The notes under the pieces are model-generated. The model was not told the origin of the DNA. It saw nothing but the letters and a program-made list of their open reading frames with translations, and searched no databases. 64,000 nucleotides of DNA, taken from NCBI RefSeq assembly GCF_012290005.1, contig NZ_JAAXMS010000002.1, positions 558,001-622,000 on the forward strand, written 5' to 3'. The first letter of the stretch is position 1. Every line of letters starts with the position of its first letter. Of the stretch, positions 14,428 through 41,650 are shown one piece after another. This stretch comes from Crateriforma spongiae (lineage in GTDB: Bacteria; Planctomycetota; Planctomycetia; Pirellulales; Pirellulaceae). A program made the position numbers and the translations under genes.

Positions 14428-14454
14428 CCCATGGGCCGCGATGTGGGTCAGTTC
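14421..14454. terminator. Hairpin spanning two convergent stop codons
   Basis: An 11-base perfect inverted repeat (GAACTGACCCA at 14421-14431 and its complement at 14444-14454) with a 12-base loop. It covers the TGA of the pyrophosphatase gene and the stop of the TolC-like gene on the other strand. There is no T-run, so termination would not be classical, but the placement between convergent genes fits a bidirectional transcript end. Confidence 0.5.
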
Positions 14455-16319
14455 GCGGCGATCATTACATGGGTATCCTGCAGCAACGTGCCTGATTCGA
14501 ATTGCACGTTCTTTGCCGCGATCGTGTACTCAGCCATGGACTGATAGTAACGCGTTTGCGATTCGCTTAACCGCCGCTGCGCATCCAACAGTTGCTCCAG
14601 ACTGATCGGCAACCCTGCTTCGCGATTGGCTTCCAGTGCGTCCAATGCATCTTTGGCAGCCAAGTAACGGTTCAGGTTCGTTTCCGTTTGCACAAACGCG
14701 CGATCAGCCTCGGCGACACAAGCCACCAGATCGTGCAGCACCTGACGTTCTTGTTCCTTCAACAACGCTCGTTCGCGTGCGATGTTCAGCTTCGCATTGC
14801 GGACCGCGGCGTGGGCTTGGCGGAATCCCACCGGCATGCGGAATTCCACGCCGGCTTCATATTCCTGATAGTCCATCGATCCAAATTCTTCGAACGCGGA
14901 ATTGTCGCCAGCAAGTTGCTGTCCAAGACCTCGCAAACGGTAGATGGTCACCAGATCCAATTCGGGCAACAAGAAATTCTTCGCCGCCAACAACTCCATT
15001 TGTCGACGGGCGACCAACAGACGCTGCTGCTGCAGTTCGGATCGCAACCGAATCGCTTCCGCCGTCAAGGATTCGACGTCGAAGACGATCGGTGCCGTTA
15101 AAGGGTCATCCACGCAGCGCAACAACTCTTCGTCGCCGATGGAAAGTCCGATCAGCAACCGAAGTCGTCGTTCGGCGGCCAACACACCGCCAATCCCGGC
15201 AAATGTCCCACCGCTGGTGGAATTGTTGACTTGGGTCCGTTGAATCAGCTTCCCTGCAATCGCATCCTGATATTCGCTCAGGAATCGATAGTACTGTTCT
15301 CGGGCAAGTGCTTCGGCAGACCCACCGCGTCGGTTGGATGCCTTTTGCGCTTCATAGCTTCGCCACGTTTGCCGACTGCGTTCCAGTGCCGCCCGTTTGG
15401 CATCCACGTCGCGATAAGCAAACGCCAAATCCCAATAGGCGTTGATCACGTTGCTGACGTAATCGCGTGCGTCTTGGCGAAACTTTGCGGTGCTGATGTC
15501 GTTGTCCGCCTTGGCGATCAGGACACCGTTGTAAACGCCGGGAAGAGCCGCCGGTCCGGCAATCCGGTTGAACGCCATGCCGCCACCCTGCAACAACGGT
15601 TGCCGCAGTTCTGCATGCCACTGCGTCTGCCAGGCGCTGGGCGTCAGGTTACCCGTCGCGTTGTTCGCGTCGTAGTCGGTGACGCTTCGCAAAGCGACTT
15701 CGGCGCCGGTTGCCCCGCGTTTGGAAAGCTGAAAGACATAGTCGTGGGTGTCTTGCTTGAACGCATTGGCTCCCCCGCCGAAAAAACGGTTATTGAACCG
15801 TCGATCATTGTTTTGCCATTTCCCAAACGCATACAACTGAGCATCAAATGCGCTAAGTGCGGCTTCGATACTTTGCTGCGGATCGGTTTGCACCAACTGA
15901 AGCGTCTGATCCGACGCCAACTGCTCAGGCGCTCGTAGCACCGTGGCGTTCAGGTCACGCAGCACCTGCGTGTTGGTCATCGCGATTTGGATCACTTCCA
16001 ACAGAGTCACATCGCGATAGGACGCCGATTCGAAAGCCTCCGGGTCCCGCAGCGTCATCGGCATTGGCGGCGGTTCCGGGTAGACCTCCGGCGGCGCACC
16101 GGCGTCGACGTCGCACATGATCGCATCGGCACAGCGGGTATCGTTGCCGATCGTTTCCGGAACACTGCGACAGGCGCGACAGCCGACGCCCGCGGTGATG
16201 CCAGCGGCAACCACCAGCCACGCAATCCCCGGCCAGCCGGTGACGACGGATCGGCGCTGTTGAGAACCCGCGGAATAGCCCCGGGATCGACGGTCGGATC
16301 GGACGATGAATCGCGTCAT
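14448..16319 (-). CDS. TolC-family outer membrane efflux protein
   Basis: About 623 residues from the ATG at 16319; the open frame continues to 16400 and the start is uncertain. The N-terminus has a hydrophobic stretch (WPGIAWLVVAAGITAGVGC) that could be a signal peptide ending at a Cys, a possible but imperfect lipobox. The remainder shows the two OEP repeats of TolC-like proteins: long helices with many Ala, Gln, Glu and Arg (for example DARDYVSNVINAYWDLAFAYRDVDAKRAALERSRQ region near residues 280-320). It is expected to form an outer-membrane channel. It is divergent from the GAF-HlyD/HlyD/M50 trio across 171 bases and is probably its outer component. Confidence 0.82.
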   Translation of the reverse strand: MTRFIVRSDRRSRGYSAGSQQRRSVVTGWPGIAWLVVAAGITAGVGCRACRSVPETIGNDTRCADAIMCDVDAGAPPEVYPEPPPMPMTLRDPEAFESASYRDVTLLEVIQIAMTNTQVLRDLNATVLRAPEQLASDQTLQLVQTDPQQSIEAALSAFDAQLYAFGKWQNNDRRFNNRFFGGGANAFKQDTHDYVFQLSKRGATGAEVALRSVTDYDANNATGNLTPSAWQTQWHAELRQPLLQGGGMAFNRIAGPAALPGVYNGVLIAKADNDISTAKFRQDARDYVSNVINAYWDLAFAYRDVDAKRAALERSRQTWRSYEAQKASNRRGGSAEALAREQYYRFLSEYQDAIAGKLIQRTQVNNSTSGGTFAGIGGVLAAERRLRLLIGLSIGDEELLRCVDDPLTAPIVFDVESLTAEAIRLRSELQQQRLLVARRQMELLAAKNFLLPELDLVTIYRLRGLGQQLAGDNSAFEEFGSMDYQEYEAGVEFRMPVGFRQAHAAVRNAKLNIARERALLKEQERQVLHDLVACVAEADRAFVQTETNLNRYLAAKDALDALEANREAGLPISLEQLLDAQRRLSESQTRYYQSMAEYTIAAKNVQFESGTLLQDTHVMIAAN

Positions 16320-16422
16320 GGTCTTTTGAATTGGACGCCGGCCAGGCCGGCTGATACGCATCATCGTTATAGTTCGTCCCACCGGTACGACCGTATCCAA
16401 TCATTCCGTCACGAAACGCGCA

Positions 16423-16490: not shown

Positions 16491-17876
16491 ATGCCGACCA
16501 TGGCTCCGCAAAACGTCTCTCATACCGCTGGTCGCGACGCCACCCATACTCGCGACACTGCTACCTGGACCGATGTCGCCGCCAACGCGATCGACCAGCT
16601 GGACCTTGCTGCGCAGACCGCCAACGGGCTCCAGCCCTTCATGGACAACGCGCTCGATGTTGTCGCCCAGACCGTCGGCGCGACCCGCTGCACCTTGTCG
16701 CTTTTGGAACAAGGTGCCCCCCGCGTACTGGCCAGCCGTCTCGCGTCCGATCCATCACCGTCGGAATCGCCAGCGACGAGCACCACCACGGCCCGAATCC
16801 GGCGGGTGGACATTTCCCCAGAAACCGCCTTGGAACTGATGACCCAATGGCCACAGGGGCACCGCTTTGCCGCAGCGTCGCAATCGACCATGACGGACGT
16901 CGATCAGCAGCAACCGGTCGACGAGTTTCTCACGTCGGTACTGCAACTGTGTCAAACGGTGTTTCTTAAAGACCAGTACACGCGATACCGGACCTTCACG
17001 CCCGCCGCATTTCCGGACGAATCATCGACATCATCTGGCCGAAAACAGAAAATCCGGCTTGCCACCGTTTTGATCATCGCCTTGGGATTGATCAGCTTCG
17101 TTCCGATACCGTTCCACTTGCCCGTCGTCGGCGTGATCCGGTCCAAAGATCAGTTCGGCATCTATGCCCCCGTTTCTGGCAGGGTCGCCAAGGTTGCGGT
17201 GACTGACGGCCAGAACGTCGACGAAGGCCAAGTCTTGCTGGTTCTGGAAAATGCGGAACTGCAACTGCGCCGCAGCAGCGTGATCGGTGAATTGGCAACC
17301 GCGGAGGCCGAGCTGACCAGTTTGCGCGCGGGATCTTCAAAGGCCTCCGACGAATCCGATCCCAACCAAAGCCTACGGCAATCGGTGCTGCGCACCAGAA
17401 TCGACGCATTGCGAAAACAAGTCGAATTGGCCAATCGAATTCACGAGACATTAACGCTGCGTGCCCCCATCGCAGGACGCGTGAACACCGATTCGACATG
17501 GGACCATCGCACCGGCCAAAACATCGCAGCGGGCCAGTGGTTCATGGACATCGTTTCTGATGACGAAGGTTTTGTCGCGGTCATGTCGTTGCCCGAACGT
17601 CAGTTTGGATACCTTGGCGATGAAAGGATCCCCTGCGATTTTCGATTGCGGTCCGCCCCCGAATCCAGCCTATCGGGAACCGTGCAAACGGTCGCCGAAA
17701 CGGTGTCGGTTCGTCCTGATGGAACGTCAGTCGTTGAGATGACGATACCGGTGGATTCGAACATCGGCCTGCGACACGGCGCCGAAGTCGTTGGTCACAT
17801 CACCCCGGGGCGGCGTCCGCTTGGATTTGTCCTTTTCCGGCCCATCATCGAAGCTTTCAGGAACCAACGATGGTGA
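16491..17876 (+). CDS. GAF-like domain fused to HlyD-type adaptor (cassette 1)
   Basis: 461 residues. Residues about 20-170 resemble a shortened GAF domain (IDQLDLAAQTANGLQPFMDNALDVVAQTVGATRCTL region), predicted cytoplasmic. One membrane helix follows (VLIIALGLISFVPIPFHLP, about 200-218). The rest is a HlyD/membrane-fusion part: lipoyl half-motifs (GIYAPVSGRVAKVAVTDGQ and LRAPIAGRVNTD), a short coiled hairpin and a beta-barrel. It parallels the larger protein encoded at 39602-41650. It is the first gene of a coupled trio; its stop overlaps the next start by seven bases. Sensor-linked export adaptor is an inference. Confidence 0.75.
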   Translation: MPTMAPQNVSHTAGRDATHTRDTATWTDVAANAIDQLDLAAQTANGLQPFMDNALDVVAQTVGATRCTLSLLEQGAPRVLASRLASDPSPSESPATSTTTARIRRVDISPETALELMTQWPQGHRFAAASQSTMTDVDQQQPVDEFLTSVLQLCQTVFLKDQYTRYRTFTPAAFPDESSTSSGRKQKIRLATVLIIALGLISFVPIPFHLPVVGVIRSKDQFGIYAPVSGRVAKVAVTDGQNVDEGQVLLVLENAELQLRRSSVIGELATAEAELTSLRAGSSKASDESDPNQSLRQSVLRTRIDALRKQVELANRIHETLTLRAPIAGRVNTDSTWDHRTGQNIAAGQWFMDIVSDDEGFVAVMSLPERQFGYLGDERIPCDFRLRSAPESSLSGTVQTVAETVSVRPDGTSVVEMTIPVDSNIGLRHGAEVVGHITPGRRPLGFVLFRPIIEAFRNQRW

Positions 17877-18961
17877 AGCAACTTTCGATCCTTGCGTTGG
17901 GTATGTTCACAGCCTGTGTGCTGCTGTCCCGTCCCTGTCCTGCCGAAGATGCACACCGCCGTATCGGCGGCTTGGTCGTCGTCGCGGTGGATTCGGCAAC
18001 GGTGTCGTCATCAATCGAAGGACGCGTGGAATCCGTTCAAGCCGTCGAAGGCGATGACGTTTCGCGGGATCAATGCGTCATTTCGCTGAATGACTCCGAA
18101 GCGGATCTGCGTCATCGATTAGCAAAAAGCAACGTTCAAATCGCTGTTGAACGGTCGGGCGAGAATCGCCAAACCGTGGCCGCCGAAATCGCATTGCGCG
18201 AAGCCAAGCAGTTATTGGATGAATTCCTTTCGACCCAAGAAATCAATCAACGCAAAGCCGAAAACGATCTGTCGATCCGAGCCGCCGAAAAGGCAGAGTC
18301 GGTCGCACAAAACGAACTCGAACGCGCCCAGAAGGCTCGCGCAAACTTTTCAGATTCGATATCTGAATCCGAGATTGATGCGTTGGAATTGGCCTACCAA
18401 AACCGCCAATTGGAAACTCGACAAGCCCGATTCGAGCACAGTCTGGCACAACTGGACGTCGCCGCCGGAAAACGTCGAATCGACACCCTGCGAACCCGCA
18501 TCGATGCGGCAGAACAGGCACGCATCGAATCCGCATCGCTGGATCGAATCCTGCGCTGGCAGGCCGAAATCGAACAACATCAGGAACGCTTGGCGTCGCT
18601 GCATCTGAAGCAACACCGGCTGACATCCCCCATCACCGGTACCCTGGTATCGGTCTCGGTCCAAGCCGGTGATTGGATCGACCAGGGGCAAACCGTAGCA
18701 CGTGTCGTGAATCTGCAGCGTTTGCGGGCCGAAGGATTTATCCCTTTTGCAGATGTCGAATCACTTCGCCGAACTTCCAATCTGAACATCAAGATTCAAG
18801 TGGCAGGCGGCGAAACCGTCACCGTAAAACCAACACGCCAGTTCATTAGTCCGGAAATCGATCCGATCACCCAGGAAACACGTGTCTGGTTTGAATTTCC
18901 GAATCCGGAACGCAGGATCAAACCAGGGCTTTCGGCGATGCTGATGATGGGTGCGCCGTGA
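17870..18961 (+). CDS. HlyD-family periplasmic adaptor (cassette 1)
   Basis: 363 residues with an N-terminal signal peptide (LSILALGMFTACVLLSRPCPAE). The first lipoyl half (VDSATVSSSIEGRVESVQAVEGD) and the second (LTSPITGTLVSVSVQAGDWI) flank a long coiled-coil hairpin (about residues 85-245). A barrel domain follows. Such adaptors bridge inner-membrane transport proteins and a TolC channel. It overlaps the upstream gene by seven bases and the downstream M50 gene by four (GTGA). The counterpart in the second cassette is the protein at 38563-39528. Confidence 0.85.
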   Translation: MVKQLSILALGMFTACVLLSRPCPAEDAHRRIGGLVVVAVDSATVSSSIEGRVESVQAVEGDDVSRDQCVISLNDSEADLRHRLAKSNVQIAVERSGENRQTVAAEIALREAKQLLDEFLSTQEINQRKAENDLSIRAAEKAESVAQNELERAQKARANFSDSISESEIDALELAYQNRQLETRQARFEHSLAQLDVAAGKRRIDTLRTRIDAAEQARIESASLDRILRWQAEIEQHQERLASLHLKQHRLTSPITGTLVSVSVQAGDWIDQGQTVARVVNLQRLRAEGFIPFADVESLRRTSNLNIKIQVAGGETVTVKPTRQFISPEIDPITQETRVWFEFPNPERRIKPGLSAMLMMGAP

Positions 18962-21165
18962 AAGTCCAACCAATCTCTGCTGGGGCAACGCAATTCTCCG
19001 GTGCATCCTATTGTCTGAACCGACAATTGATCCATCGAAAGATTCGGTTTGGTCGCCGATCGACTTGGGTGGTCAAACGAATCGCCGACGAGGCTTTCTT
19101 TTACTTTGATGAAGCGGAACACTGGATCCTTCAACAACTGACAAGTCCAATGACCCTCGGTCAATTGATGGACCGCTGTCGCAACAACATGCGGGATCAC
19201 GCTCCCTCACCAGGCGCACTTTCCGAGTTCGTCCAGATGTTGACCAGCAACAATCTATTGCTGGTCGGAAATGAAAGACGAACAACAGACGCTGGCCGAT
19301 CGCCGGGGCGCCGTCATGACTACTCACTTCATCCATTGGCATTGCGTTTGCCTGGAATTGATGCCAGCCGCTTTTTCGACTGGGCCGCCACATGCTTGCG
19401 ATCCATCCCACGTTCGTTGGCCGTCGGCGTCTATCTGACACTTTTGGCCGTCGCAGGCGGTCTGGCATGGACCGATTTCCCCGCCCTGGTCACCGACATC
19501 CGAGACGCAGCACAGCGTATGCCCACGCAATGGGTTTGGTTCATCTTGGCCCTCGCGTTGGCAAAAGTGTGTCATGAAATTGCACACGCCTTGGCTTGTC
19601 ATTTGGCCGGCGGTCGATGTCGAAACGTCGGCGTCATGTTTCTGTTTGGTGTCCCCTGTTTGTACTGCGATGTCAGCGATGCTTGGCTAATGCCACAGCG
19701 TTGGCATCGTGTTCTGGTGTCTGCCGCGGGCATGATGGCCGAATGGTTCATCGCCGCCATCGGTGTCTTGATATGGTGGACCAGCCAACCAGGAATTCTT
19801 CACGACACCGCGTCACTGTTGATCATGGTTTGCACGGTCAGCACGTTGATTTTCAATGGCAATCCGCTGATGCGTTACGACGGGTACTTCATCTTGTCAG
19901 ACCTTTGGGGAAAGCCAAACCTGGCCCAGCGATCAGCGACCGCATTGCGAAAATTCGCATATCGGATCGTTTACGGCAGTCGCGATGAATCGCTTGCTTG
20001 TGATCATCACGGCGACGAAGACACCAGCACTGCCCTAGTGGCCTATGGACTTGCCAGCGTTTTGTACCGTGCATTGGTCTTATCATTCATCGGCTTCATT
20101 GCGATGCGCTGGGTCACCGGCACGCCATGGTTTTGGCCTGCGACACTGCTGATCATCGCGACCTTCGTACGCGTGCTTTTCGCAAGCATCGGCAAACCGC
20201 ACGATGCCGAAACCGCGCGAGACCGGTCATCGGACGGGAAACGAGTACGACGCCCGGCAATGGTCGCCGCCGCAATCGTGATCCTGGCACTCGCTGTTCT
20301 GATTGTCCCACTGCCACGCACGCTAACGGTCGATGGTGTGGTGCTTCCGGACAAGCACCAGGAGATCCGGCTATCCGGATCGGGCCGGGTCATCGACGCA
20401 GTCCGTCCCGGCGTTGTGCTGGAACAAGATCAAACCATCCTGCAAGCCGACGATTGGGTCAATCGCTGGGAACTGCTACGCTGCGAAGCTGCCACGGATT
20501 CGATTCGAAACCGTATCGACGCGATCCGGTTGATGCGAACTCAGAATCCGGTTCTTTCACAACAGCTTCCGGCGTTGACCGAACAACTGCAGGCATCCAT
20601 CGCCCAATCACAGACCCTGCGATCGCAACTGAAACTGATGCACCTTCGCGCCGAAGCCGGCCAGATGGTTTTTGAAACTCAGAAAGTCACGCCTTCGCGG
20701 GATCAAAAACAACGACTTTGGGTCGGGTCGCCGTTTGCATCGGAAAACCGTGGATGCGTTGTTCCCGCCGGGCAGCGACTTGGCTTGGTGGGTGATGCAA
20801 ACGAACGCATCATCCGATTGGCACTTCCGCAGGAACAGTTGGACCTGGTCCGAATCGGCCAAACCGTCAGAATTCCACTATCGGGGCGAAGCAAGCCTGC
20901 TGCGGGAACGATTCGCTCGATTGCACAATTACCAAGCACCGGTTCCGGAGGTTTGCCACGATCGGCGATCGATTCATTCGATGTCAATTTGCCGGCGGCT
21001 CAAGCACAGGCCTCAAACACTTACGACGTCACCGTAGACTTGAATGCATCGACCTTTCATCGGCCGTTGCCGGTTCACCTGTCCGTGGTTGGCCGAATCG
21101 AATTACCCGATGCGGCAATCTATCAACGTGTGTGGCGATTCTTAATCGAGAACTTTTCGCATTGA
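18958..21165 (+). CDS. PqqD-like/M50 site-2 protease/HlyD fusion membrane protein (cassette 1)
   Basis: 735 residues. Residues about 20-100 look like a PqqD-type winged helix (RRSTWVVKRIADEAFFYFDE and a following LGQLMDRC helix). Several membrane helices carry the M50 metalloprotease motifs: HEIAH at 206-210 and NPLMRYDGY from Asn302. A PCLYCDVSDAW segment with two Cys lies between. The C-terminus (about 440-735) is a HlyD-type part (VDGVVLPDKHQEIRLSGSGRVIDAV and barrel). Start is GTG overlapping the HlyD stop, which leaves no room for a better site. Protease activity toward any substrate is unproven, though both metal motifs are intact. Confidence 0.8.
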   Translation: MKVQPISAGATQFSGASYCLNRQLIHRKIRFGRRSTWVVKRIADEAFFYFDEAEHWILQQLTSPMTLGQLMDRCRNNMRDHAPSPGALSEFVQMLTSNNLLLVGNERRTTDAGRSPGRRHDYSLHPLALRLPGIDASRFFDWAATCLRSIPRSLAVGVYLTLLAVAGGLAWTDFPALVTDIRDAAQRMPTQWVWFILALALAKVCHEIAHALACHLAGGRCRNVGVMFLFGVPCLYCDVSDAWLMPQRWHRVLVSAAGMMAEWFIAAIGVLIWWTSQPGILHDTASLLIMVCTVSTLIFNGNPLMRYDGYFILSDLWGKPNLAQRSATALRKFAYRIVYGSRDESLACDHHGDEDTSTALVAYGLASVLYRALVLSFIGFIAMRWVTGTPWFWPATLLIIATFVRVLFASIGKPHDAETARDRSSDGKRVRRPAMVAAAIVILALAVLIVPLPRTLTVDGVVLPDKHQEIRLSGSGRVIDAVRPGVVLEQDQTILQADDWVNRWELLRCEAATDSIRNRIDAIRLMRTQNPVLSQQLPALTEQLQASIAQSQTLRSQLKLMHLRAEAGQMVFETQKVTPSRDQKQRLWVGSPFASENRGCVVPAGQRLGLVGDANERIIRLALPQEQLDLVRIGQTVRIPLSGRSKPAAGTIRSIAQLPSTGSGGLPRSAIDSFDVNLPAAQAQASNTYDVTVDLNASTFHRPLPVHLSVVGRIELPDAAIYQRVWRFLIENFSH

Positions 21166-27411: not shown

Positions 27412-30400
27412 TCATGAACTGCCGGCGTTTTGATCCCCAATCCCTGCGGCGATACGACGCAAAAAGCGGGACGATCGGGAAAACGGTTGAACCGGGGCTT
27501 CATCCGGCGGCAAAGATTCAGCATCCCCGTCTTCAGCCGGCCAAAATGAATCGACCGGTGGCTGATCCGCTGCGGCATCACCCGATTCCCGGTCTTCGCT
27601 TGGGTCAGCCGATGCCTCCTGGGAATTCGATATTTCGTCGCCGTTTCCATCCGAACCGTCGGTGGCGTCCAGCGGCGTCAGCTTCAAGGTACCGCCATCG
27701 AGATCGTCGTTCAAAATCACCGGACGACCGCCACGCAAATCAACGCGCAAAATGGAACGTTCGTCGTCGTCGCCGGCGACGTATTCAATCTCATACGCCC
27801 CATCGGGAAGCTGCTGGAACAACCGCTGCAGCTTCTGGAAATCCAAGATGTCGTCGGGCAAGCGAATCGGTTCGATCAAATCCGGTGACGCGGGATCTGG
27901 CGAAAGCGTTCGCAACTGAAAGTATTCATCACTGATCGAAACATTCAACGATGTACTTTCGGACGTTTGAAAGCTGGCATCTGTGACAAAAGTAGTTTCG
28001 GTCTGTCGCACAATGGTGGGCAATTCCACCGGTTCGGGAATCACATCACGAACAGGAAAAAATGCGACGGGGACGTCGACCTGTGGGATCACGAAAAACG
28101 CTCTTCCGTTTTCCAGAATCGGACCCGCCGGGTCCAGCGTCAACGGATTGTCGGTCGATGTGACCAGTCGACCATCGACTTGCAGCGGCAGGTCGCTGCC
28201 CTGAAACACGCGATCCGCCTGGATCTGAATCGACTCGTGGTGTGACACCGAAAAACGTACCGCCAAAGGGTCGGTTGCACTTTGCCGACCATTCAATGTC
28301 GAACTCAAAATGTCGGATTCAAGATAAACATGACTTACCTGTGCCGTTGCACCGTCACCGGGAAGATTATCGACGCGCTGAAAACGATCCACCGGAGCCC
28401 CCCAGTCGATCGTTAACGTGAAGCCGGTTTCGCCTTCGGTTCCAATGTCAACGCTTAGCGTTCCCTCCGCATCATTCAAGTTCGCTTGAGACAGAATATT
28501 GGTGCTGACGGAATCAAAATCATAAAACGCATCCGCTACGACTCCCTCACCCGGATAGGGCGTGAACTGGCGCGCGATCCCCACGCCCTGCCCCGTCATG
28601 ATTTCAAAATCATCGCCCAGCGAAACGGTGTCCGCTTCGACATCGACCGCTCCGCCGGTGGTTGCATCGGCATGAAGTTGGACCGAATCACCGACAATCC
28701 AGCTGTCCCCCATCCGCAACTGAATCGTCCCCGACGTTCCGCCCGCAACAATCTCTGGATCCGCTTTTCGATCGTTGCCGTCATTCGTCGGGTCAAAGTC
28801 ATCGATCACGATGTCTTCGGCGGCCTGGATGTCGATGCCTCCGTTGCCGGTTCGGATGACGCCCGAATCGTCACGAGAATCACCAGACGCCAAGCGAAGG
28901 GAATCGGTTTCGGCGATCAGCAAATCGCCAGGATTGGTTCCATCAACCGATGCAACCAAATCGCCGATAGCCGTGGTTAGCGAGATCGATTCGGCCTGAT
29001 CCGCGACATCGTTGGCCGCAATCACCACCAAATCATCGGCGACAACCGAAGCCGTTTGTGAATCGACAACACCCACGACAGCATCGATCGACATCACATC
29101 ATCCGCAGACACCAGCCGAACGTCGGCGTTCAAGTCGGCTTGAACCCGACCGACCAATAAATCACTGCCTGCACCGGTGGTTTCCAAGCGGATGTCACGA
29201 CTGTCGGCCGAACCATCGGCACCGTCTGAACCGAATTGGTTTTCTGAATGAACCAGCGTGGCTTCCATTGTGCCCGCCGAACGCACGTCAATCCCGCCAT
29301 CGACGGTCTGCAATCGTTGGATACGAATGGAATCTTGTTCGTCGATCGCAACTGCGCCGGAGGAGGACACAAAGCCATCAAGCGTTTGCACCTGAGTCTC
29401 AATTGCGTCGCCATCGCCAATCCCTGAATGTGACCGAATGACAACGCCGCCCGATTCGGCCACAAGGTCAATGTCGCTGTCGCCTGCATCGCGCACAGCA
29501 CCAGTCACGCTTGTCACTCGTATCGCGTCATCATCGGTTGAACCGCTGACCACGGTGCCCAGCGTCATGTCCGAACTGGCCGACAACCGGACGACGTTCT
29601 CGGTGGAGATGACTGCCGCGCCATCTTCCATGCGAATTTCGCCCAAACTTCCCTGAGCGTCGCCCGCGGTCAGCCGCACTTGCCCCGGCGATTCCACGTT
29701 TGCACCGGCAGGCAAAACAAGGCCCGCTTGGTGATTCACCACATCGATCCCACCGGATGCGTTGACGTCCACCAATCGAAGATCACCCGCACCGTCGCGA
29801 TCTACCATGATCGAACCGCCGTCGGCCCGCAATTGCGAAACTTCCGCATCGGTCGATCCCAACCAATCCAAAGCGATGTCACCATCGGTTGTGACCGCAT
29901 CCAACGTTCGCAAATCGGCCAGACGCATCGGCGTAACACCACCGATGCCCTCGTCGGCACGTAAAATCAATCCGTTGGCGTCGATTCGGGCGTCGGTACC
30001 GTCAATCGCATCGATACGTTGGGCCGAAAGGTCGACGTTCTCGCCGGCGTCCACCGCCCCCACCCGCAGCGCGACATCGCTGTGCAATTGAATCGAGCGA
30101 CCGGCAACAAGTTGGTCCACAATGTCGATTTGGTTGCCGGGCTGCGAAAGATCAATCGCCCCGTCGGCATACACGGATAAGTGATCGATGTCGATCGCCT
30201 GACCGCTCGCCTGCTGAACATCACCCACAATGGGTTGCGCTGGTGCGCCAATGGTCAGTGCTTCGGCCTGCATCGTCCCCAGACGGACGACGGTCGCGTT
30301 TCCCAACACAATTCCAGCGGACTTCAAATGCAACCCCGTCAGGTCCAACGGATCTGACGATGCGTCGACCCAGATTTGGTCCACGGCGTCAATGGTTCCA

Positions 30401-31719
30401 TCGGTCCCCGATATCGGCCCCGTCACGGTCACGTCCCTTGCCGTTAAAGATGAATCCAACAGGGTTTCGGTGGCCTGTAGTTGGACATCGTCCGCGACGC
30501 TGACATCACCTGTCAGTATGATTTGATTCTCCGCCCCGACATCCAAATCACCCTGCACCAACAACGCCTGTTCGATGCGAACGGAATCGCCCGAGCGAAT
30601 CAGCAAGGAATCATTGCCGCCGGTGGATGCCATCTCCGATTCAATGATTAGATCCTGTTCGGTCACCAAATCGACATCCCCTTCGAACGTCGTCGGCACC
30701 GACAGCACAAGATCTTCTGACGTCTTCAACTGCAGGTCGACCAATTCCATCTGACGCGCGTTGACGGTGAACTGATTCGCGGTGATGTCGGAACGGATCG
30801 AGACATTGGAATCAGGCGAGTCAATCGCCAGGCTTCCACTGACATCGATGGTATCGCCCGACAGTTGAATTTGATCGCCGCCTCGGATGGTCACATCGTG
30901 CAACGGTTCCCCGACGGATCGGTCCACATCCCCAAGGTTCAGATCGACGGTGCTTCCCAGTTGAAACGTCAATGAACTTTCGACATTCGTCGCAGCGGTC
31001 GATACACCGGTCAGTTCCACCGGTCCTTGGGTCGCTTGAACAGTCACGTCTCCCGAGACGACCAACATGCCATCGATTCGAATCGATCCGTCGCCCAAAT
31101 CCACCAACGTCGACTGATCGGGCTGGCCAACGTCCGTTCGCCCCGTGATCGTCAGACGATCGCCTTGGGCGTCAAAGGCCCCCGAGCGTGGTGCCAAAAC
31201 GACTTGCTCCGAATCGATGGTCACTTCGTCGGCGGAACTGCCGTTGATGACGGGCGATTCCAAGACCACACGATCCCGGCCGTCGCCGCCCGTCACGTCG
31301 ATGTCCAAACCGTCGATCAAAGGTGTCACCGCGACATCATCACCGGCCCCCAGGTCGATCCGCAACGACCCAGCAGTGATCTCAGACCGCTGGATCGAAT
31401 CAGCGTAGACCGGGTTGCCCACGCCATCGGTCCCGACTTGGATCGGAATCAACGACGCGTCGGCATCGAACAGACGCACATCATCAGTCGCGGCATGCTG
31501 GACTTGAACAAAGTCGTTACCGACGTCTCCCTGGATCACCAATTCACCCAAGGCGGTCAATTCCGCAGTCGCGTTGAGAACCAAACGACGTTCCAGCACT
31601 CGGACCCGTGGCTTCCACCCCGTCATCGCTGCGGCCGGATGCTTCGCGGCATCGGCCACCACCCGCCGGCGTCGCCACCATTTCGCCAAGCGTCCCGGAT
31701 TCCGTCGGCTTGGTTGCAT
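27412..31719 (-). CDS. Giant repetitive extracellular protein, LEPR-XLL-like N-terminus
   Basis: 1435 residues, with no cysteine and rich in Asp, Val, Ser and Gly. The N-terminus is strongly basic (KWWRRRR), lacks a hydrophobic signal core, and carries LERRLVLNA near residues 42-50, similar to the LEPR-XLL motif of planctomycete secreted giants. Most of the chain is short beta-strand repeats (DxxDVxxx, GxIxLxx), as in right-handed beta-helix or filament proteins. The C-terminus has an acidic linker followed by a basic tail (PFSRSSRFLRRIAAGI). Function is unknown; a surface or matrix protein is likely. It is upstream of the kinase gene, probably in one operon. Confidence 0.72.
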   Translation of the reverse strand: MQPSRRNPGRLAKWWRRRRVVADAAKHPAAAMTGWKPRVRVLERRLVLNATAELTALGELVIQGDVGNDFVQVQHAATDDVRLFDADASLIPIQVGTDGVGNPVYADSIQRSEITAGSLRIDLGAGDDVAVTPLIDGLDIDVTGGDGRDRVVLESPVINGSSADEVTIDSEQVVLAPRSGAFDAQGDRLTITGRTDVGQPDQSTLVDLGDGSIRIDGMLVVSGDVTVQATQGPVELTGVSTAATNVESSLTFQLGSTVDLNLGDVDRSVGEPLHDVTIRGGDQIQLSGDTIDVSGSLAIDSPDSNVSIRSDITANQFTVNARQMELVDLQLKTSEDLVLSVPTTFEGDVDLVTEQDLIIESEMASTGGNDSLLIRSGDSVRIEQALLVQGDLDVGAENQIILTGDVSVADDVQLQATETLLDSSLTARDVTVTGPISGTDGTIDAVDQIWVDASSDPLDLTGLHLKSAGIVLGNATVVRLGTMQAEALTIGAPAQPIVGDVQQASGQAIDIDHLSVYADGAIDLSQPGNQIDIVDQLVAGRSIQLHSDVALRVGAVDAGENVDLSAQRIDAIDGTDARIDANGLILRADEGIGGVTPMRLADLRTLDAVTTDGDIALDWLGSTDAEVSQLRADGGSIMVDRDGAGDLRLVDVNASGGIDVVNHQAGLVLPAGANVESPGQVRLTAGDAQGSLGEIRMEDGAAVISTENVVRLSASSDMTLGTVVSGSTDDDAIRVTSVTGAVRDAGDSDIDLVAESGGVVIRSHSGIGDGDAIETQVQTLDGFVSSSGAVAIDEQDSIRIQRLQTVDGGIDVRSAGTMEATLVHSENQFGSDGADGSADSRDIRLETTGAGSDLLVGRVQADLNADVRLVSADDVMSIDAVVGVVDSQTASVVADDLVVIAANDVADQAESISLTTAIGDLVASVDGTNPGDLLIAETDSLRLASGDSRDDSGVIRTGNGGIDIQAAEDIVIDDFDPTNDGNDRKADPEIVAGGTSGTIQLRMGDSWIVGDSVQLHADATTGGAVDVEADTVSLGDDFEIMTGQGVGIARQFTPYPGEGVVADAFYDFDSVSTNILSQANLNDAEGTLSVDIGTEGETGFTLTIDWGAPVDRFQRVDNLPGDGATAQVSHVYLESDILSSTLNGRQSATDPLAVRFSVSHHESIQIQADRVFQGSDLPLQVDGRLVTSTDNPLTLDPAGPILENGRAFFVIPQVDVPVAFFPVRDVIPEPVELPTIVRQTETTFVTDASFQTSESTSLNVSISDEYFQLRTLSPDPASPDLIEPIRLPDDILDFQKLQRLFQQLPDGAYEIEYVAGDDDERSILRVDLRGGRPVILNDDLDGGTLKLTPLDATDGSDGNGDEISNSQEASADPSEDRESGDAAADQPPVDSFWPAEDGDAESLPPDEAPVQPFSRSSRFLRRIAAGIGDQNAGSS

Positions 31720-33590: not shown

Positions 33591-33760
33591 CGCTCATCAA
33601 GTCGCGGCGAATCGGTCGGTGAATCCTATCCAAAGCGTTACAGCGGCGTGGGTCAACGTATCGAAATCTCTTTCCTGCTGCCAAGATGTCCGATCGCCGG
33701 ACGAATGCCTCGGCACCGTTATCCTCCTCCGCCCCTTTCCCATCACAGCGACGTACCGTC

Positions 33761-35656: not shown

Positions 35657-36055
35657 TCAGTCCTTCTTGGCCTGAGCAGCCTGTTGTTGCAGGCCCGGAC
35701 GAACACGCTTGTTGATGTCCGTCTCCAGAACGCCGAAAACCGACTCGTGGCGGGCGACCGACATTTGCAAGGCGGCCAGAAGACGCTTCGCGGTGAAGAA
35801 GTTCAAAATGATTCGTTGCTTGACTTGAATCGGGTCCTTCGGGACACCGATCGGTTGCGGGTTCAAACCAAAGTCGACGATCAGTTCCTCGGGCGAACCG
35901 GTCACGCGGCAAAAGTTCGCGTAGGTGGCGACCGCGTGATCATCTTCGACTTGGACTTGAACGGGCTGTTGGGTTTGTGCCTTTTCAGCGGCCGGTGCGG
36001 GAGCGGGAGCAGCGGTCTGAGTGTCTTCGGCGGTCTTGGCGGCTTCGTCGGCCAT
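35657..36055 (-). CDS. DUF3467 domain protein
   Basis: 132 residues. A low-complexity Ala/Pro/Gln N-terminus (about 40 residues) leads to the DUF3467 core: TYANFCRVTGSPEELIVDFG and VKQRIILNFFTAKRLLAALQMSVARHE. The function of the domain is unknown. The ATG at 36055 starts directly before MADEAA; the longer frame to 36088 is not supported. It converges on the propeller gene across the bidirectional terminator. Confidence 0.8.
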   Translation of the reverse strand: MADEAAKTAEDTQTAAPAPAPAAEKAQTQQPVQVQVEDDHAVATYANFCRVTGSPEELIVDFGLNPQPIGVPKDPIQVKQRIILNFFTAKRLLAALQMSVARHESVFGVLETDINKRVRPGLQQQAAQAKKD

Positions 36056-36244: not shown

Positions 36245-38482
36245 CTAAAATTCAAAGTTGAACGTCTTGGCAATGATCCGCCACAAGCGTTGCCCCAGGG
36301 ACATTGGATCCACATGAATCTTGGCCGATCCGCGATAGCCCGCTCTCAACACGGTCTCATCAAAATCAATCGGGACACGCCCTTGGAAAGAAACACTGCG
36401 TGGTTTGATCTGACCTGTCCGCGGATCGATTTCGGTTTGCAAATCGCCCCCGGTTTGGCTGGACATATTGGTCGATGCTGCTTGCATCGGATTGATTGAC
36501 ATCTCGGTCAATTCGCCATGAAAGGTTTCCAATCGTTTGGAATCCAGTTTCAAATCAACCTCTTGGCCGACACGAACAAGCTGAATATCGCCCTGGTCGA
36601 TGATCAGCACTGCCTCATAATCCTTGGGGGTGCCGATCTCACAAATCTTATCATCCGGCGTCATCAATGCACCGACGTTGTGGGGTTGCAGCGGCGTTCC
36701 CGTCCAACCGGGCAAACGACCATCGCCAGCATCTTGTGATGGTTTGTCGGCTGGCGGCAAAACTTGGCCGTCACGAACCGCGCGAACGGTCAATCGCTTG
36801 ACTTCCTCTTCGGTTTTTTCACGCAGCGCGACGATCGATGCCAGGACCTCATCTTGATAATCCTGCTGCACTTTGACCGATTCATCGGTTCGAGCACGAC
36901 GCGTTAGGTTCGCACGCTGGACTCGTGCAAGTTCTTCTTGTCCCTGAAGATCCGCCAAACGAATGATCAGGTCAGGATTCTCCAGCTCGGCAACCGGATC
37001 GCCTTTGGAAACGATGTCGCCCGGCTGTGCAGTCCAGCGGACACGTCCCGTTGTGGCGGCATAGACCGACCCAGCTTCGCTGGGACGAATTTCAAACGCA
37101 CAATCGATATGGTGCGGAAGCGGAATGTACGCCACCGCTGCTAGGATCGCTCCCACGATGCCCAGCGTTGCAAACAGTCGGCCCTTTTTCACTTTTGCCA
37201 ACCTCCCAGGCGTACGAACAAATTTCCAAGTTTGAATAATGGGCTGCATCACAAGGCCGGCGAATCCGGCCACAGCCAACAACCGGCCGACCGCCTGAAG
37301 TCCATAAGGTTCCAACACCTTCATGACGAACCAGACGATCGAAAACACAACCACCCATCGATAAATCACACTGGCGATGGTGAACATCGCAAAGGCAAGT
37401 CGATTTCGCTGGGGCAAGAATGGATCTTCTTGCAATTCCAATCCCAAGCAGGTTTCTTGAAACCATCGCTTGAGAACTTCCGTGGCCTTCTGACGAAGGT
37501 TGGGAATTTCCAGCAAGTCCATCAAAATGTAATAGCCGTCGAACCGCAGCAACGGGTTCCCGTTGACCAGAATCGTGCTGACGGCATTTAGGAACATGAT
37601 ATTCAGCGACAAGTCATTGACGGTCGTTCCAGGTTCGCTGAAGAACCAGACGAAGGCCGCAATCGATGCCAGGATCATCTCCACATAAATCCCAGCCGCG
37701 CCGATCCAAACACGCTGCCATTTATTGGGCAACATCCATGAATCGGAAACATTGCAATACAGACACGGCGTGAACACCAACAGCATGAAACCGATTTCGT
37801 GGCATTCACCACCAAATTTCTTACAACTTAGCCCGTGACCGAATTCATGAATGACTTTCACGACTCCCATCGTCGCCGCAAGAATCAGCCACCGGTCGGC
37901 TGCAAAAAATTGCTGGAACGTGGGCAGCTTTGCATAAACCGTTTCATACTGGGTCGCCAACAACAACGACGCAGTAAGAAACAAACCCACAAAGAACAAC
38001 AACGCCGGGACCGTGAACATCCACCCGAACCACGGCAACAGCCGGTTCAAGATTTTTTCAGGGTCGATACCACGGGTACGGATAGCAAAAATGTTGGAAA
38101 ATTTGCCCAACAGTTCTTTGTTGCGTTTTTTCCGACCGCGTTCGCGAAGCTGTTTTCCCTGACCTGGCGAATTACTGATCACCAGCCCACTGCGGTGCAG
38201 CATTCCGATGAACTGTTGCAGATCCCCGAAGGTGATTTTTTGCGGTGCGAATCGCGCCTCGAATCCGTCTTTGATCTGTTGCAGGCTGACGTGACCGTCC
38301 AGCATGTTCAGGATGAAATATTCTTCATCATGAAAGCGGAAGTATTGCAGCCCGATCGGTTCTTTGACCACCCAATAGGCCGCACCCTGATAATGGTGCC
38401 GACTGCCCGTCAGGTCCGGCCGTTTGCGCACCGTCAGCGGCCGCGACGAGCTGCTTACCAGGGATTCGGCCAAAGTGGTCAT
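36245..38482 (-). CDS. PqqD-like/M50 site-2 protease/HlyD fusion membrane protein (cassette 2)
   Basis: 745 residues, a paralogue of the protein at 18958-21165. Residues about 22-100 form a clear PqqD-like domain (YWVVKEPIGLQYFRFHDEEYF, shortened here, and a DGHVSLQQIKDGF helix). The M50 protease motifs are HEFGH at 212-216 and NPLLRFDGYY, with the shared PCLYCNVSDSW segment. The C-terminal third is HlyD-like (GSVYAATTGRVRWTAQPGD) with a beta-barrel. Up to ten membrane helices lie between. It is last in the minus-strand order GAF-HlyD, HlyD, M50, with an 80-base gap to the HlyD gene. Confidence 0.82.
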   Translation of the reverse strand: MTTLAESLVSSSSRPLTVRKRPDLTGSRHHYQGAAYWVVKEPIGLQYFRFHDEEYFILNMLDGHVSLQQIKDGFEARFAPQKITFGDLQQFIGMLHRSGLVISNSPGQGKQLRERGRKKRNKELLGKFSNIFAIRTRGIDPEKILNRLLPWFGWMFTVPALLFFVGLFLTASLLLATQYETVYAKLPTFQQFFAADRWLILAATMGVVKVIHEFGHGLSCKKFGGECHEIGFMLLVFTPCLYCNVSDSWMLPNKWQRVWIGAAGIYVEMILASIAAFVWFFSEPGTTVNDLSLNIMFLNAVSTILVNGNPLLRFDGYYILMDLLEIPNLRQKATEVLKRWFQETCLGLELQEDPFLPQRNRLAFAMFTIASVIYRWVVVFSIVWFVMKVLEPYGLQAVGRLLAVAGFAGLVMQPIIQTWKFVRTPGRLAKVKKGRLFATLGIVGAILAAVAYIPLPHHIDCAFEIRPSEAGSVYAATTGRVRWTAQPGDIVSKGDPVAELENPDLIIRLADLQGQEELARVQRANLTRRARTDESVKVQQDYQDEVLASIVALREKTEEEVKRLTVRAVRDGQVLPPADKPSQDAGDGRLPGWTGTPLQPHNVGALMTPDDKICEIGTPKDYEAVLIIDQGDIQLVRVGQEVDLKLDSKRLETFHGELTEMSINPMQAASTNMSSQTGGDLQTEIDPRTGQIKPRSVSFQGRVPIDFDETVLRAGYRGSAKIHVDPMSLGQRLWRIIAKTFNFEF

Positions 38483-38562: not shown

Positions 38563-39528
38563 TCATTTGATGACGATGTCGGCCGACATGCCGGGCCGGA
38601 TGATCCAGCGTCCATCGACCTGTTGGTTTTTGATCACGGCCCAAGCGCGATAGCTTTCCAGGCTATTGATCCCAGGGCTGACAAAGCCCAACTGGGTGTT
38701 GATGCGGATCGGTTCGCCGTCTTTGCCATCGGCGTAAACCCAAACTTCGCACGGGGCACCGGCGTAAACGCGGTCGCCGGTTCCGATGGCGGGCAAATCG
38801 GCTTCGACCTTCAATTCATCCATCTGCAACAGGCTGGCGATCGGGCTGCCCGGTTGGACCCATTCGCCCTGCTGTGCATCGCGTTCTTCGATTTCGATCA
38901 CGCCGTCAAACGGCGCCTTGATTTGCCGACGATCCAATTCGTGTTCGGCCATCGCCAATTCCACACTGCGGGCGATGAATTTGATTTGGTTGCCCTTGGT
39001 TTCGATGTCCGCAAGTTCGATCTGTAGACCGGCCTTTTCGACTTCGAGTTCCTTCTTTTCTTTTTCAAAACGGCTGGCAGCGTTTTTTCGGAACAGTTCA
39101 CGAAGGGCCTCGGCTTCCTTTTCGGCAAGCTCACGACTGCTGACGGCGAAACGTCGGTTGATGTCGTTTTCGGCGTTCAGCTTGGCTTCCAGCTTTTCAG
39201 CTTTCTTTAGCTCCACGGCCAAGCGTGCGGAACGGTCATCGATCACACCGATGACCTCGCCGGCTTTGACAATGCTGCCTTCTTCGATGTTCAGTTTGGT
39301 CAGCTTGCCTTCCACTTCGGCCGGAATCTTGATGTTTCGACGAAACTTGACAAAGCCGTTTTCCGAACGCAGTTGACCGTCGGCCATGGACCGCTGGCCG
39401 CCAAGCCCGGTATAGGGAGTGGCCAGGCTGCCACGTTCCTGGCCGCTGGCATCGCCGTTGACGACCAACAGGCACGCCATCATGGCCGGCAACAAGAACA
39501 GCAACGATGTTTTGGGTTGGATGGTCAT
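38563..39528 (-). CDS. HlyD-family periplasmic adaptor (cassette 2)
   Basis: 321 residues with a signal peptide (LLFLLPAMMACLLVVNGDASGQ). Lipoyl half-motifs (KIPAEVEGKLTKLNIEEGSIV and APFDGVIEIEERDAQQGEWV) flank a coiled hairpin rich in Lys and Glu (about residues 105-205). The barrel follows and ends GMSADIVIK. It corresponds to the 363-residue protein of cassette 1. It lies 73 bases downstream of the GAF-HlyD gene. Confidence 0.86.
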   Translation of the reverse strand: MTIQPKTSLLFLLPAMMACLLVVNGDASGQERGSLATPYTGLGGQRSMADGQLRSENGFVKFRRNIKIPAEVEGKLTKLNIEEGSIVKAGEVIGVIDDRSARLAVELKKAEKLEAKLNAENDINRRFAVSSRELAEKEAEALRELFRKNAASRFEKEKKELEVEKAGLQIELADIETKGNQIKFIARSVELAMAEHELDRRQIKAPFDGVIEIEERDAQQGEWVQPGSPIASLLQMDELKVEADLPAIGTGDRVYAGAPCEVWVYADGKDGEPIRINTQLGFVSPGINSLESYRAWAVIKNQQVDGRWIIRPGMSADIVIK

Positions 39529-39601: not shown

Positions 39602-41650
39602 CTAGAAGAAGAACTTGCAAGCCCACTCGTAGACTTCGTGAAGCAAGACGAACCCGGAGGCGCGTCGGCCGCATTTCACGTCGGCGGTGAAGCGTGTGCC
39701 GGGACTGGGATCAAGCTTTTTCAGATCGTCCTGGTCGGGCGTTGCTTTCATCTTGATGATCGCGCCGTGTTCTTCATCGGCTTCGGCACGCAACGCGATC
39801 TGGCGGGTCGGCAAGACCGCGTGAAGTGTTTCGTCGGGATCGGACGCCAGGATGTATTCAACGTCCAATTGATTCAGACCATTTTCGCGAATGAAATTGT
39901 CCAAATGCCCCTCACGTTTCTCGGGCATCTTCAATTCCAAATACAGCGGCTCGGTCAAGTCGGCGACCTCCATCAAGACTTGCCCGGTGGTCACGGGCCG
40001 AGCCCGCAACATTTTTTCGACTTCCCATGAAACCACGGTACCGTCGATCGGCGATTTGACGTCCAAGTCGGCTTCGCGTTCTTGCTTCAGCTCCAGTTTC
40101 TTTTTCAAGATCTCCAGCTTCGTTCCCAGCTCATACGTCTGGGCTTCCAAAGCGACCGCTTCGCTGCGTTCCATGTTGCGGCGATCCTTCAACTGCATCC
40201 GCAGACGATCGAATTCCGCATAGGTCGTTTGAATCTGTCCCTGAAGATCGGCGATTTCGATGTCCAGATCAGGATTGCGCAAACGTAGCAGCACTTGGCC
40301 GGCTTTGACCTCGTCGTTCTCCTTGACCAAAACATCGATGACTTCACCGTCGATGTTGGCAAAGACTTCGCGCCGGACTTCCGGCAACAGCGTGCCTTCG
40401 GCTTCCAAGTCAAAGTCCAGCGGTACAAAAATGCCTGCCAGAATCAAGCCGATCACGCCGGCCACCACGGCCAAGGTCTTGGGCAGCGTCCGAGCCTTTA
40501 AAACCCAAGTCGCACGCCCCAGAGCCCGCCAAACCGGCATCAGGAAAAGGTTGCTGTGTGATAGCGAGTTGGCGATCGCTCGAGTGCCGTGTTCGTAGAC
40601 CAAGTCACAGCGGGCACGGAACACTTCCGGCGGAAGTTCGCTTTCGATTTGTTCGACGATTAGCGCGCCGATGACTTCGCCACGGTGCGCGTTGTCGCGA
40701 TCCAAGGCACCAGTGGCCGCGTTTTCTTCACTGCTGATGTCGCGTTGCGGTTCACGCAGTGGCAGTACGGCGATGTTTCGGCCGTAGGACTGATCGACGT
40801 ATTCTTCCAACGCGTCTTCGATCTGTGGCGGCAAGTCTTCGGTCTTGCCGTCGTGCCACAACGGTTCGCCGGCGGCGACAACGCGGGTGGCCAAATTGTT
40901 CAGGGCGGCAACGATGTTGGATCGGTTTTCGAACGTGTCTTGACCGCTGATCGCTTCGACCTTGCACTTGCGCCCCGACTTGATCGCCACACTGACGCGG
41001 TCACAACCGATCAACCGCCGTCCTTCGTTGGCAACGATGTTCGCGGTTTCTTTAAGGTCCAATGACTCGTGGGCCGCGCGGGCGAACGAATCCGATTGCT
41101 GCCACAGTGTTTGGCGGTCGCCCAACGTTCGCAGTTTTTGGCTTCGCAACCATTCGGCGGCCAACTGACACATCTGCTGCATGAACCGCAGATAGCCGCG
41201 TTGGGTGTCCGGAGCGGTGTCGGGCCGCTGAAAGACTTCGATCACGCCGTCCTTGTGGCCGTCATGCTCGAGGGCCCCGAGGACCAACAGATATCGCGTC
41301 GGGTTGCCTTCACTTTCGCCGTCGGTGGTTCCAGAGTACGGGGGCACCAGCAACGACTGGCCCGCATTGGCCACACGGGTGATCAAACGATTGTGCCGGG
41401 CGGCGTCTTCGCTGTCGTTGGACAGCACCGATGGTTCGGCGTTGATCTGGTACTGCAGTTTCAATTGGCGGTCTTCGTCCAGCAGCCAAATCGCGCCGCC
41501 GGCGGCCGCCAGGGCCGTGATGATCCGGGTCAAAAGCTCCGGATAGAACTCTTCTGCCGTTGCCCCACTTTTGGACAACGTCGCAATTTCGTTCACCAAA
41601 GCGCGGATCTGTGCCTTGGTTTCTTCGACCGATTGCTGATTGACCGCCAT
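39602..41650 (-). CDS. Double GAF domain fused to HlyD-type adaptor (cassette 2)
   Basis: 682 residues from the ATG at 41650; the frame upstream is noncoding in character. Two GAF-like domains (about residues 25-175 and 195-375) are predicted cytoplasmic. One membrane helix (TLAVVAGVIGLILAGIFVPL) follows. The HlyD part has lipoyl halves (EVFANIDGEVIDVLVKEND and VKSPIDGTVVSWEVEKM), a coiled hairpin and a barrel. The arrangement suggests that a cytoplasmic sensor is physically joined to the export adaptor. The ligand of the GAF domains is unknown. It is the first gene of cassette 2. Confidence 0.8.
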   Translation of the reverse strand: MAVNQQSVEETKAQIRALVNEIATLSKSGATAEEFYPELLTRIITALAAAGGAIWLLDEDRQLKLQYQINAEPSVLSNDSEDAARHNRLITRVANAGQSLLVPPYSGTTDGESEGNPTRYLLVLGALEHDGHKDGVIEVFQRPDTAPDTQRGYLRFMQQMCQLAAEWLRSQKLRTLGDRQTLWQQSDSFARAAHESLDLKETANIVANEGRRLIGCDRVSVAIKSGRKCKVEAISGQDTFENRSNIVAALNNLATRVVAAGEPLWHDGKTEDLPPQIEDALEEYVDQSYGRNIAVLPLREPQRDISSEENAATGALDRDNAHRGEVIGALIVEQIESELPPEVFRARCDLVYEHGTRAIANSLSHSNLFLMPVWRALGRATWVLKARTLPKTLAVVAGVIGLILAGIFVPLDFDLEAEGTLLPEVRREVFANIDGEVIDVLVKENDEVKAGQVLLRLRNPDLDIEIADLQGQIQTTYAEFDRLRMQLKDRRNMERSEAVALEAQTYELGTKLEILKKKLELKQEREADLDVKSPIDGTVVSWEVEKMLRARPVTTGQVLMEVADLTEPLYLELKMPEKREGHLDNFIRENGLNQLDVEYILASDPDETLHAVLPTRQIALRAEADEEHGAIIKMKATPDQDDLKKLDPSPGTRFTADVKCGRRASGFVLLHEVYEWACKFFF

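Follow-up and report, generated by a model that had tools for sequence, protein, structure and literature searches.

HlyD-type adaptors normally work with pumps, according to the accessible portion of PMC8277102. A stretch of 64,000 nucleotides from the planctomycete Crateriforma spongiae (contig NZ_JAAXMS010000002.1, positions 558,001 to 622,000; hereafter the window) carries, at 16,491-21,165, a trio of genes called cassette 1, whose products all include such adaptor halves and of which one is fused to a site-2 protease of family M50. This trio probably forms the core, in the inner membrane and the periplasm, of a secretion system that is linked to TolC and serves giant surface proteins of the LEPR type. 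Among described systems, type I secretion (HlyB/HlyD/TolC, LapBCE) shares with it the HlyD-type adaptors, the TolC-type channel (Pfam HlyD_3/HlyD_D23 and OEP) and a giant adhesin-like cargo, whereas here no ABC transporter belongs to the recurrent gene set, one of the three adaptors is protease-fused and the signal would be N-terminal rather than C-terminal. Tripartite efflux of the RND or MFS type is set apart by its transporter partner, and none belongs to the present set by a crude rule of length and hydrophobicity.

Peptidase-containing ABC exporters, in which the cutting of double-glycine leaders by a C39 domain is coupled to export (accessible portion of PMC8277102), offer a functional analogy, with the difference that a membrane metalloprotease stands here in place of C39 and that there is no ABC motor. 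The daptide protease MpaP and the epipeptide proteases YydH/LiaK (NF041824, NF058609) resemble the third protein of the trio in joining an RRE-type domain to a site-2 protease with HExxH and a distal Asp. The present family differs from them by its fusion to an HlyD adaptor, by its link with TolC and giant proteins, and by scores under the curated cut-offs. In Gram-positives, the SecA2-type motor of the accessory Sec system (SecA2/SecY2) drives the export of large serine-rich surface adhesins, as stated in the available part of PMC6973325, whereas the setting considered here is Gram-negative and includes HlyD, TolC and a leader protease. Finally, the LEPR-XLL (NF012209) and DUF4347 (PF14252) proteins, known as named domains, have the same motif and belong to the same protein class as the candidate substrates discussed below.

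Cassette 1 and its divergent neighbour comprise the following genes.

14448..16364, minus strand: TolC-like outer membrane channel (Pfam OEP, 2.7e-19; ATG start at 16364, TTG at 16400 possible)
16491..17876, plus strand: HlyD-type adaptor, membrane-anchored, with a cytosolic N-terminal region (HlyD_3, 1.5e-16; one hydrophobic segment)
17870..18961, plus strand: secreted HlyD-type periplasmic adaptor (RND_mfp TIGR01730, 96.2 bits for a cut-off of 94.9; one N-terminal hydrophobic segment)
18958..21165, plus strand: predicted RRE (PqqD-like) domain, site-2 protease (M50) and MacA-like adaptor in one protein of 735 residues (fold match of the AlphaFold2 model; HEIAH and NPLMRYDGY)

Most of what the initial annotation had described at this locus was borne out. 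The open reading frames overlap by seven bases (first and second genes) and four bases (second and third), Pfam finds HlyD/lipoyl halves in all three products and an OEP domain in the divergent TolC-like gene, and the gene lists hold no ABC, RND-like or MFS-like gene between 14 and 32 kb of the window, the nearest ABC/FtsX pair lying at 49.2-51.5 kb. A second such architecture was confirmed at 36-42 kb, all on the minus strand. The GAF domain that had been assigned to the first protein of cassette 1 (P0001) found no support, since Pfam gives no match there even at E up to 1; two GAF domains are carried by the cassette-2 counterpart, P0007. Across first-gene adaptors, Pfam detects GAF in P0007 and L254, gives a weak match in L057, and finds none in P0001, L049, L042, L204, L208 or L203.

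The M50 protein is the most distinctive member of the trio. HEIAH occupies residues 206-210 and NPLMRYDGY starts at residue 302. The closest named NCBIfam models of the M50 proteins are daptide_HExxH and YydH/LiaK, with daptide-model scores of 153.6 and 184.8 bits, below the curated cut-off of 300. The PqqD-like part noted initially has no Pfam match at E 0.01; it was recovered by a profile of 56 M50 homologues, which matches the solved PqqD 3g2b (2e-4) and the lasso-peptide RRE TfuB1 (0.002), and also the archaeal site-2 protease MJ0392 (5.6e-4) and many adaptors. In the AlphaFold2 model (mean pLDDT 83.4), residues 15 to about 105 align with RRE-bearing chains at Z 9.1-12.3, the best being TigE (Z 12.3, root-mean-square deviation 1.9 over 91 residues), leader-bound TbiB1 (Z 11.4) and TfuB1 (Z 10.5). 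Residues 428-724 match MacA (Z 15.1, deviation 6.3 over 244 residues). Residues 186-353 align with an RseP orthologue at Z 9.3 (deviation 5.5 over 138 residues), a weak match for a helical part that adds little to the sequence motifs because unrelated helical hairpins reach Z 9.4. By its sequence and predicted model, the M50 protein is a leader-binding-type RRE fold followed by an intact set of site-2 protease motifs and a MacA-like adaptor.

The zinc-binding and catalytic H/E/H/D residues are kept in all 77 aligned M50 copies, of which 61 are planctomycete rows chosen by a motif filter and 16 are unfiltered plasmid rows. The alignment holds 78 rows; the only one lacking catalytic residues is an adaptor included in error (L070_6013), and L045 was omitted from the motif table as a duplicate. 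Without any motif filter, an intact M50 copy was found at 57/57 planctomycete loci and 23/23 proteobacterial loci, as well as at 80/80 loci on genome contigs (72 by the gene caller and eight on reading all frames), where the scan pattern demanded the DGY motif and not HExxH. As the motifs are intact in these copies, the protein is not a decayed protease.

The genome that contains the window (6.87 Mb) encodes six proteins of this M50-HlyD family. An M50-family match was obtained in 59 of the 60 genomes of a set of relatives that includes this genome (among the matches listed) and in 32 of 149 planctomycete genomes when the best seven candidates per genome were scored. Phylum-wide scoring of both the M50 and the SecA-like proteins covered the best seven or eight first-look candidates per genome, which makes absences soft. 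Neighbourhoods were compared in stretches of about 20 kb around M50 genes of this and related genomes (19 genomes, 57 loci kept); the controls were 60 stretches placed at round-number coordinates of 14 among these genomes. Three loci picked for a known nearby LEPR match (L099, L100 and L101) were excluded from the counts; L086, which also has such a match, was kept because every listed copy of its genome was taken. The greedy gene caller hid the M50 gene of L065, which is intact, and the DUF3467 gene of the window, so that counts are lower bounds in both groups.

Three partners recur around the M50 genes. A TolC-family gene is present at 25/57 M50 loci and 0/60 controls (Fisher p 5e-10), a protein of at least 350 residues with an N-terminal LExR motif at 20/57 and 3/60 (p 4e-5), and a SecA-like ATPase at 12/57 and 0/60 (p 9e-5). 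The locus L271 shows a complete cluster, with a divergent LExR giant of 2102 residues, TolC, SecA-like protein, secreted HlyD-type adaptor, membrane adaptor and M50 protein. By eye, on a tree without support values, the association is spread over several separate clades. A conserved pump partner and a general loss of the M50 motifs, which the initial annotation had named as outcomes that would speak against it, did not appear in the sample, the motifs being kept as described above and pumps not being enriched: ABC genes occur at 5/57 M50 loci and 3/60 controls (p 0.48) and, by crude rules of length and hydrophobic segments, RND-like genes at 1/57 and 1/60 (p 1) and MFS-like genes at 5/57 and 8/60 (p 0.56). 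A conventional pump as partner was ruled against by this lack of enrichment.

The SecA-like proteins are mostly of 600-750 residues. Pfam finds the SecA_DEAD, SecA_PP_bind and P-loop_SecA domains in the four tested, and the Walker A G-K-T and AGRG columns are invariant among 16 aligned sequences. Their nearest solved relatives are labelled SecA 2 (6sxh and 6t4h, 1e-213), which we take to be from C. difficile. In the 60 relatives, at least 31 of 85 SecA-like genes have a listed M50 gene at a distance of 10 kb or less, versus none of 60 canonical SecA genes among the matches listed, and the genome without an M50 match (G022) has no SecA-like match either among those listed. At the scale of the phylum, a short SecA-like protein was found in 19/32 M50-positive and 4/117 M50-negative planctomycete genomes (p 4e-12). 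In several distant genomes, the SecA-like gene directly follows the M50 gene. Two plasmid records label the SecA-like protein as a "prepilin peptidase" (L205:18029-20053, recognized by Pfam, and L209:17177-19093, recognized by our own profile), and this annotation has hidden the partner. The genome of C. spongiae has two SecA-like genes, both outside the window.

C4:556586-558544: SecA-like gene, about 9 kb around it being free of called M50 and TolC genes
C6:250824-252845: SecA-like gene, inside another cassette

Outside the planctomycetes, such genes recur in operons. Searches of plasmid records by tblastn returned 83 records with the cassette-2 M50 protein as query and 63 with the E. coli protein. 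One locus per genus was retained, giving 23 proteobacterial genera among the matches listed, with near-identical records omitted and nine Streptomyces records outside the sample. In a first layout, found with variations in Rhodobacterales and Rhizobiales, the order is giant protein, DUF3467, adaptor, M50, SecA-like, secreted HlyD-type adaptor and TolC. Between the M50 and SecA-like genes, some alphaproteobacteria have a gene for 273 residues (L205:17215-18036, L207:17214-18035 and L253:16215-17036), identified as SapC by Pfam in L205 and of equal size and place in the other two. The second layout runs from a giant DUF4347/Ig/VCBS protein to TolC, secreted HlyD-type adaptor, adaptor and M50; it occurs in Azospirillum, Niveispirillum, Burkholderia, Cupriavidus, Kosakonia, Variovorax and E. 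coli, and Eleftheria has a variant with TolC and the secreted adaptor ahead of the giant. Of 5426 complete E. coli genomes, 24 contain the version of this species (L203), a giant-TolC-adaptors-M50 operon, and 22 of them have 80% of the query or more; the operon stands at 21 places on plasmids and four on chromosomes. SecA-like genes were found in 9/23 proteobacterial stretches and ABC genes in 2/23, at 4.8 and 9.5 kb; MFS genes are annotated in the L206, L261 and L264 stretches, MFS being uncounted in this survey.

A co-directional protein of at least 1000 residues stands, by our reading, beside the cassette in 20/23 of these stretches, the exceptions being Magnetospirillum, Indioceanicola and Rhizobium, the last with a record that starts next to the cassette. 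Among the 12 such giants with a readable N-terminus, 11 carry the LExR motif under a rule widened to [LI]ExRx(L/M/V)(L/F/Y)x(A/G), which admits I at position 1 and Y at position 7. They come from Azospirillum, Burkholderia, Thalassospira (by eye, with I for L), Kosakonia, Eleftheria, Tistrella, E. coli, Mesorhizobium, Variovorax, Methylosinus and Alisedimentitalea. On the Alisedimentitalea plasmid (L269), the leader LEPRLLLAAD lies in frame upstream of the annotated start of the giant, which looks too late. The Variovorax operon (L263, CP063167 19413-68132) encodes a protein some 16,200 residues long that has LEARYMFDA close to its N-terminus.

The search rule for the motif fixes positions 1, 2 and 4 and restricts the rest. 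In 39 strings, position 1 is L in 38 and I in one, position 2 is E and position 4 is R in all 39, position 6 is L, M or V, position 7 is L, F, M or Y, and position 9 is A in 27, G in nine and V in three. The strict rule gives four matches past residue 160 in 548,942 residues, and about 1.25 matches would be expected by chance among all N-termini scanned together. In 31 motif proteins, three of them from control stretches, the median net charge before the motif is +5, and 29 have no hydrophobic stretch of 12 residues up to the end of the motif. By this simple criterion, the leader is therefore not a Sec signal peptide. Because the motif rule was derived from the first sequences seen, the independent model NF012209 was also used: of its 43 matches in the relatives, four are no more than 10 kb from a listed M50 gene, for 0.45 expected (p 0.001). 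Proteins matching this LEPR model occur in 8/32 M50-positive and 0/117 M50-negative planctomycete genomes (p 2e-6) and in none of the 14 control genomes, and the six LEPR-bearing families, by handle labels and out of about 76 families in total, are all M50-positive (p 1e-4).

An export route can be proposed from what was observed, namely the domains, the intact catalytic residues, the repeated gene neighbourhood, the N-terminal motif and the co-occurrence. A giant protein would begin with a short leader, basic and non-hydrophobic, that ends in LExRx[LMV][LF]xA. RRE domains bind the leaders of ribosomally synthesized and post-translationally modified peptides (RiPPs) and, by analogy, this leader would be bound in the cytosol by the RRE domain of the M50 protein. 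MpaP is an RRE-dependent intramembrane peptidase that removes daptide leaders, and the site-2 protease part could similarly cut at or near the motif. The SecA2-like ATPase, which adjoins the cassette in many relatives and is encoded elsewhere in this genome, would then push the chain across the inner membrane, with SecYEG or the M50 protein itself as candidate paths. The three HlyD-type adaptors would connect with the TolC-like channel, giving the giant protein a one-step passage to the surface, and DUF3467 might serve as a chaperone. The notion of a system that recognizes, cuts and exports, put forward in the initial annotation, holds as a reading of the RRE fold, the intact site-2 motifs, TolC and giants with a non-Sec motif, with leader binding, cutting, transport and complex formation as its putative steps.

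Several observations weigh against this export route. The partner set is incomplete at many loci, one or more partners being absent: 37/57 planctomycete loci have no LExR protein in 20 kb, 45/57 no SecA-like protein and 32/57 no TolC, and SecA-like genes are absent from 14/23 proteobacterial stretches. The loci of this genome and those of its sister genome are near duplicates. The 80 genome-contig loci, which are the top matches to the cassette-2 protein, many of them on short contigs, show, by the gene caller, TolC at only three, LExR at five and SecA-like genes at eight, along with ABC at seven, DUF3467 at 15, MFS-like at eight and RND-like genes at three; by record title all are planctomycete save one called only "bacterium", other phyla having been reached via plasmid records. 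Among the relatives, G046 has an M50 protein without a SecA-like match (among those listed), and 13 of the 32 M50-positive genomes of the phylum lack a short SecA-like protein by the length rule, which excluded an adjacent match in G063. Only the eight genomes mentioned above, out of these 32, have LEPR-model proteins, and the motif rule was set after the first planctomycete examples had been seen. In Phyllobacterium, the neighbour of 1412 residues has no LExR motif and may be a different type of cargo; this protein (L264:7779-12017) adjoins the adaptor and M50 genes and has an annotated HrpK domain. Finally, the LExR protein of the window lies two genes from cassette 1 on the other strand and is known by pattern match only, and the substrate is the weakest link of the window itself to export.

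Among other explanations, the polytopic M50 protein could itself form the export channel without a dedicated ATPase, the force coming from the proton gradient, from folding outside the cell or from the housekeeping SecA. The E. coli, Azospirillum, Burkholderia, Niveispirillum, Cupriavidus, Kosakonia, Variovorax and Eleftheria stretches speak for it, as they contain the giant, TolC, the secreted HlyD-type adaptor, the HlyD adaptor and M50 without any SecA-like gene. Elsewhere, however, a SecA-like ATPase is frequent and sometimes directly adjacent, and the M50 part has ordinary site-2 protease motifs, which makes this explanation unlikely as a general one. The initial suggestion that the M50 protein takes the place of the pump is thus weakened by the recurrence of a SecA2-like ATPase with intact Walker A, and may still hold in operons of the E. 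coli, Azospirillum or Burkholderia type.

It seems similarly improbable that the cassette merely processes or anchors giants exported by another route, as an envelope protease with sensing domains. The usual substrates of site-2 proteases are membrane proteins, and the GAF domains of some adaptors suggest sensing, but the presence of TolC at 25 M50 loci and no control, together with leaders devoid of a Sec-like stretch in 29/31 proteins, speaks against this explanation. A unit for the maturation and export of small RiPP peptides, comparable to the daptide or YydH systems, is suggested by the best NCBIfam matches and the RRE fold and appears quite doubtful in view of the scores of 153.6 and 184.8 bits for a cut-off of 300 and of recurrent neighbours that are large proteins, though no search for small precursors was made. 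Service to an ABC, RND or MFS pump encoded elsewhere in the genome, recalling the normal pairing of HlyD-type adaptors with pumps (accessible portion of PMC8277102), the five loci with ABC and the three stretches with annotated MFS, is very improbable, as no pump class is enriched at the 57 loci and ABC genes occur in just two proteobacterial stretches at several kilobases from the cassette.

The window also contains cassette 2 and a candidate substrate for the proposed secretion system.

27412..31719, minus strand: candidate substrate of 1435 residues, basic N-terminus, LERRLVLNA at residues 42-50 (pattern match)
31570..31596, minus strand: putative leader motif LERRLVLNA of this protein (pattern match)
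35657..36055, minus strand: DUF3467 protein (PF11950, 7.2e-25), directly after the cassette-2 M50 gene
36245..38482, minus strand: cassette-2 RRE/M50/HlyD protein, core type, HEFGH
38563..39528, minus strand: cassette-2 secreted HlyD adaptor (Pfam HlyD_3, 2.1e-14)
about 39602..41650, minus strand: cassette-2 adaptor P0007 with two GAF domains (Pfam GAF_3, GAF and HlyD families)

The open reading frame of P0007 runs to 41920, and the start at 41650 is suggested by its homologue L050, which begins with MAVNQ. The protein of 1435 residues, which the initial annotation had not linked to the cassette, matches no family at E up to 0.1 and is unrecognized by NF012209 or Pfam. The DUF3467 gene had been missed there as well; DUF3467 also adjoins the M50 operon in alphaproteobacteria. 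Fold searches with it, made to see whether it could be a SecB-like chaperone, gave a best Foldseek E of 0.45 and a best VIA Z of 5.8, SecB not being among the matches listed. Between cassette 1 and the LExR protein, the minus-strand gene 21205-27351 encodes 2048 residues, kinase-like with WD40-like repeats by eye, whose N-terminus shows repeated "DETVDLDATKRLDETVD"-type segments in a row and which is kept in the sister genome. Adjoining cassette 2, the plus-strand gene 33686-35563 encodes a PQQ-type beta-propeller with N-terminal membrane segments.

No description of a secretion machine for LEPR-XLL/DUF4347 proteins was found in the accessible portions of the open-access PMC literature, a prior description elsewhere being possible. 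One paper mentions a giant LEPR protein of a Vibrio genome and names no export machine in its available part (PMC10868602), and the available parts of PMC3482391, PMC8277102, PMC4446572, PMC12710340 and PMC7470986 contain no mention of an M50-HlyD fusion. Since the ABC transporter that defines type I secretion is lacking from the recurrent set and the scores place the M50 protein outside the daptide family, the system would be new in kind. As an evenly poised proposal, it may represent a class of secretion systems, not described before, that crosses the whole envelope in one step and that planctomycetes have in common with proteobacteria, some E. coli plasmids included. In this class, a SecA2-like motor, a fused RRE/site-2-protease/adaptor gate, further HlyD-type adaptors and TolC would act together, with the LExRxLLxA leader as the secretion and cleavage signal of giant LEPR proteins.

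Some LEPR-XLL/DUF4347 proteins are very large for bacteria, reaching about 16,200 residues in the loci read. If the proposal is true, these proteins would gain a machine, the N-terminal motif that they share would be explained as a leader, and HlyD trios without a pump would be explained as parts of that machine. It would also add a secretion route in which leader recognition of the type known for peptide natural products is combined with a SecA-type motor replacing the ABC pump.

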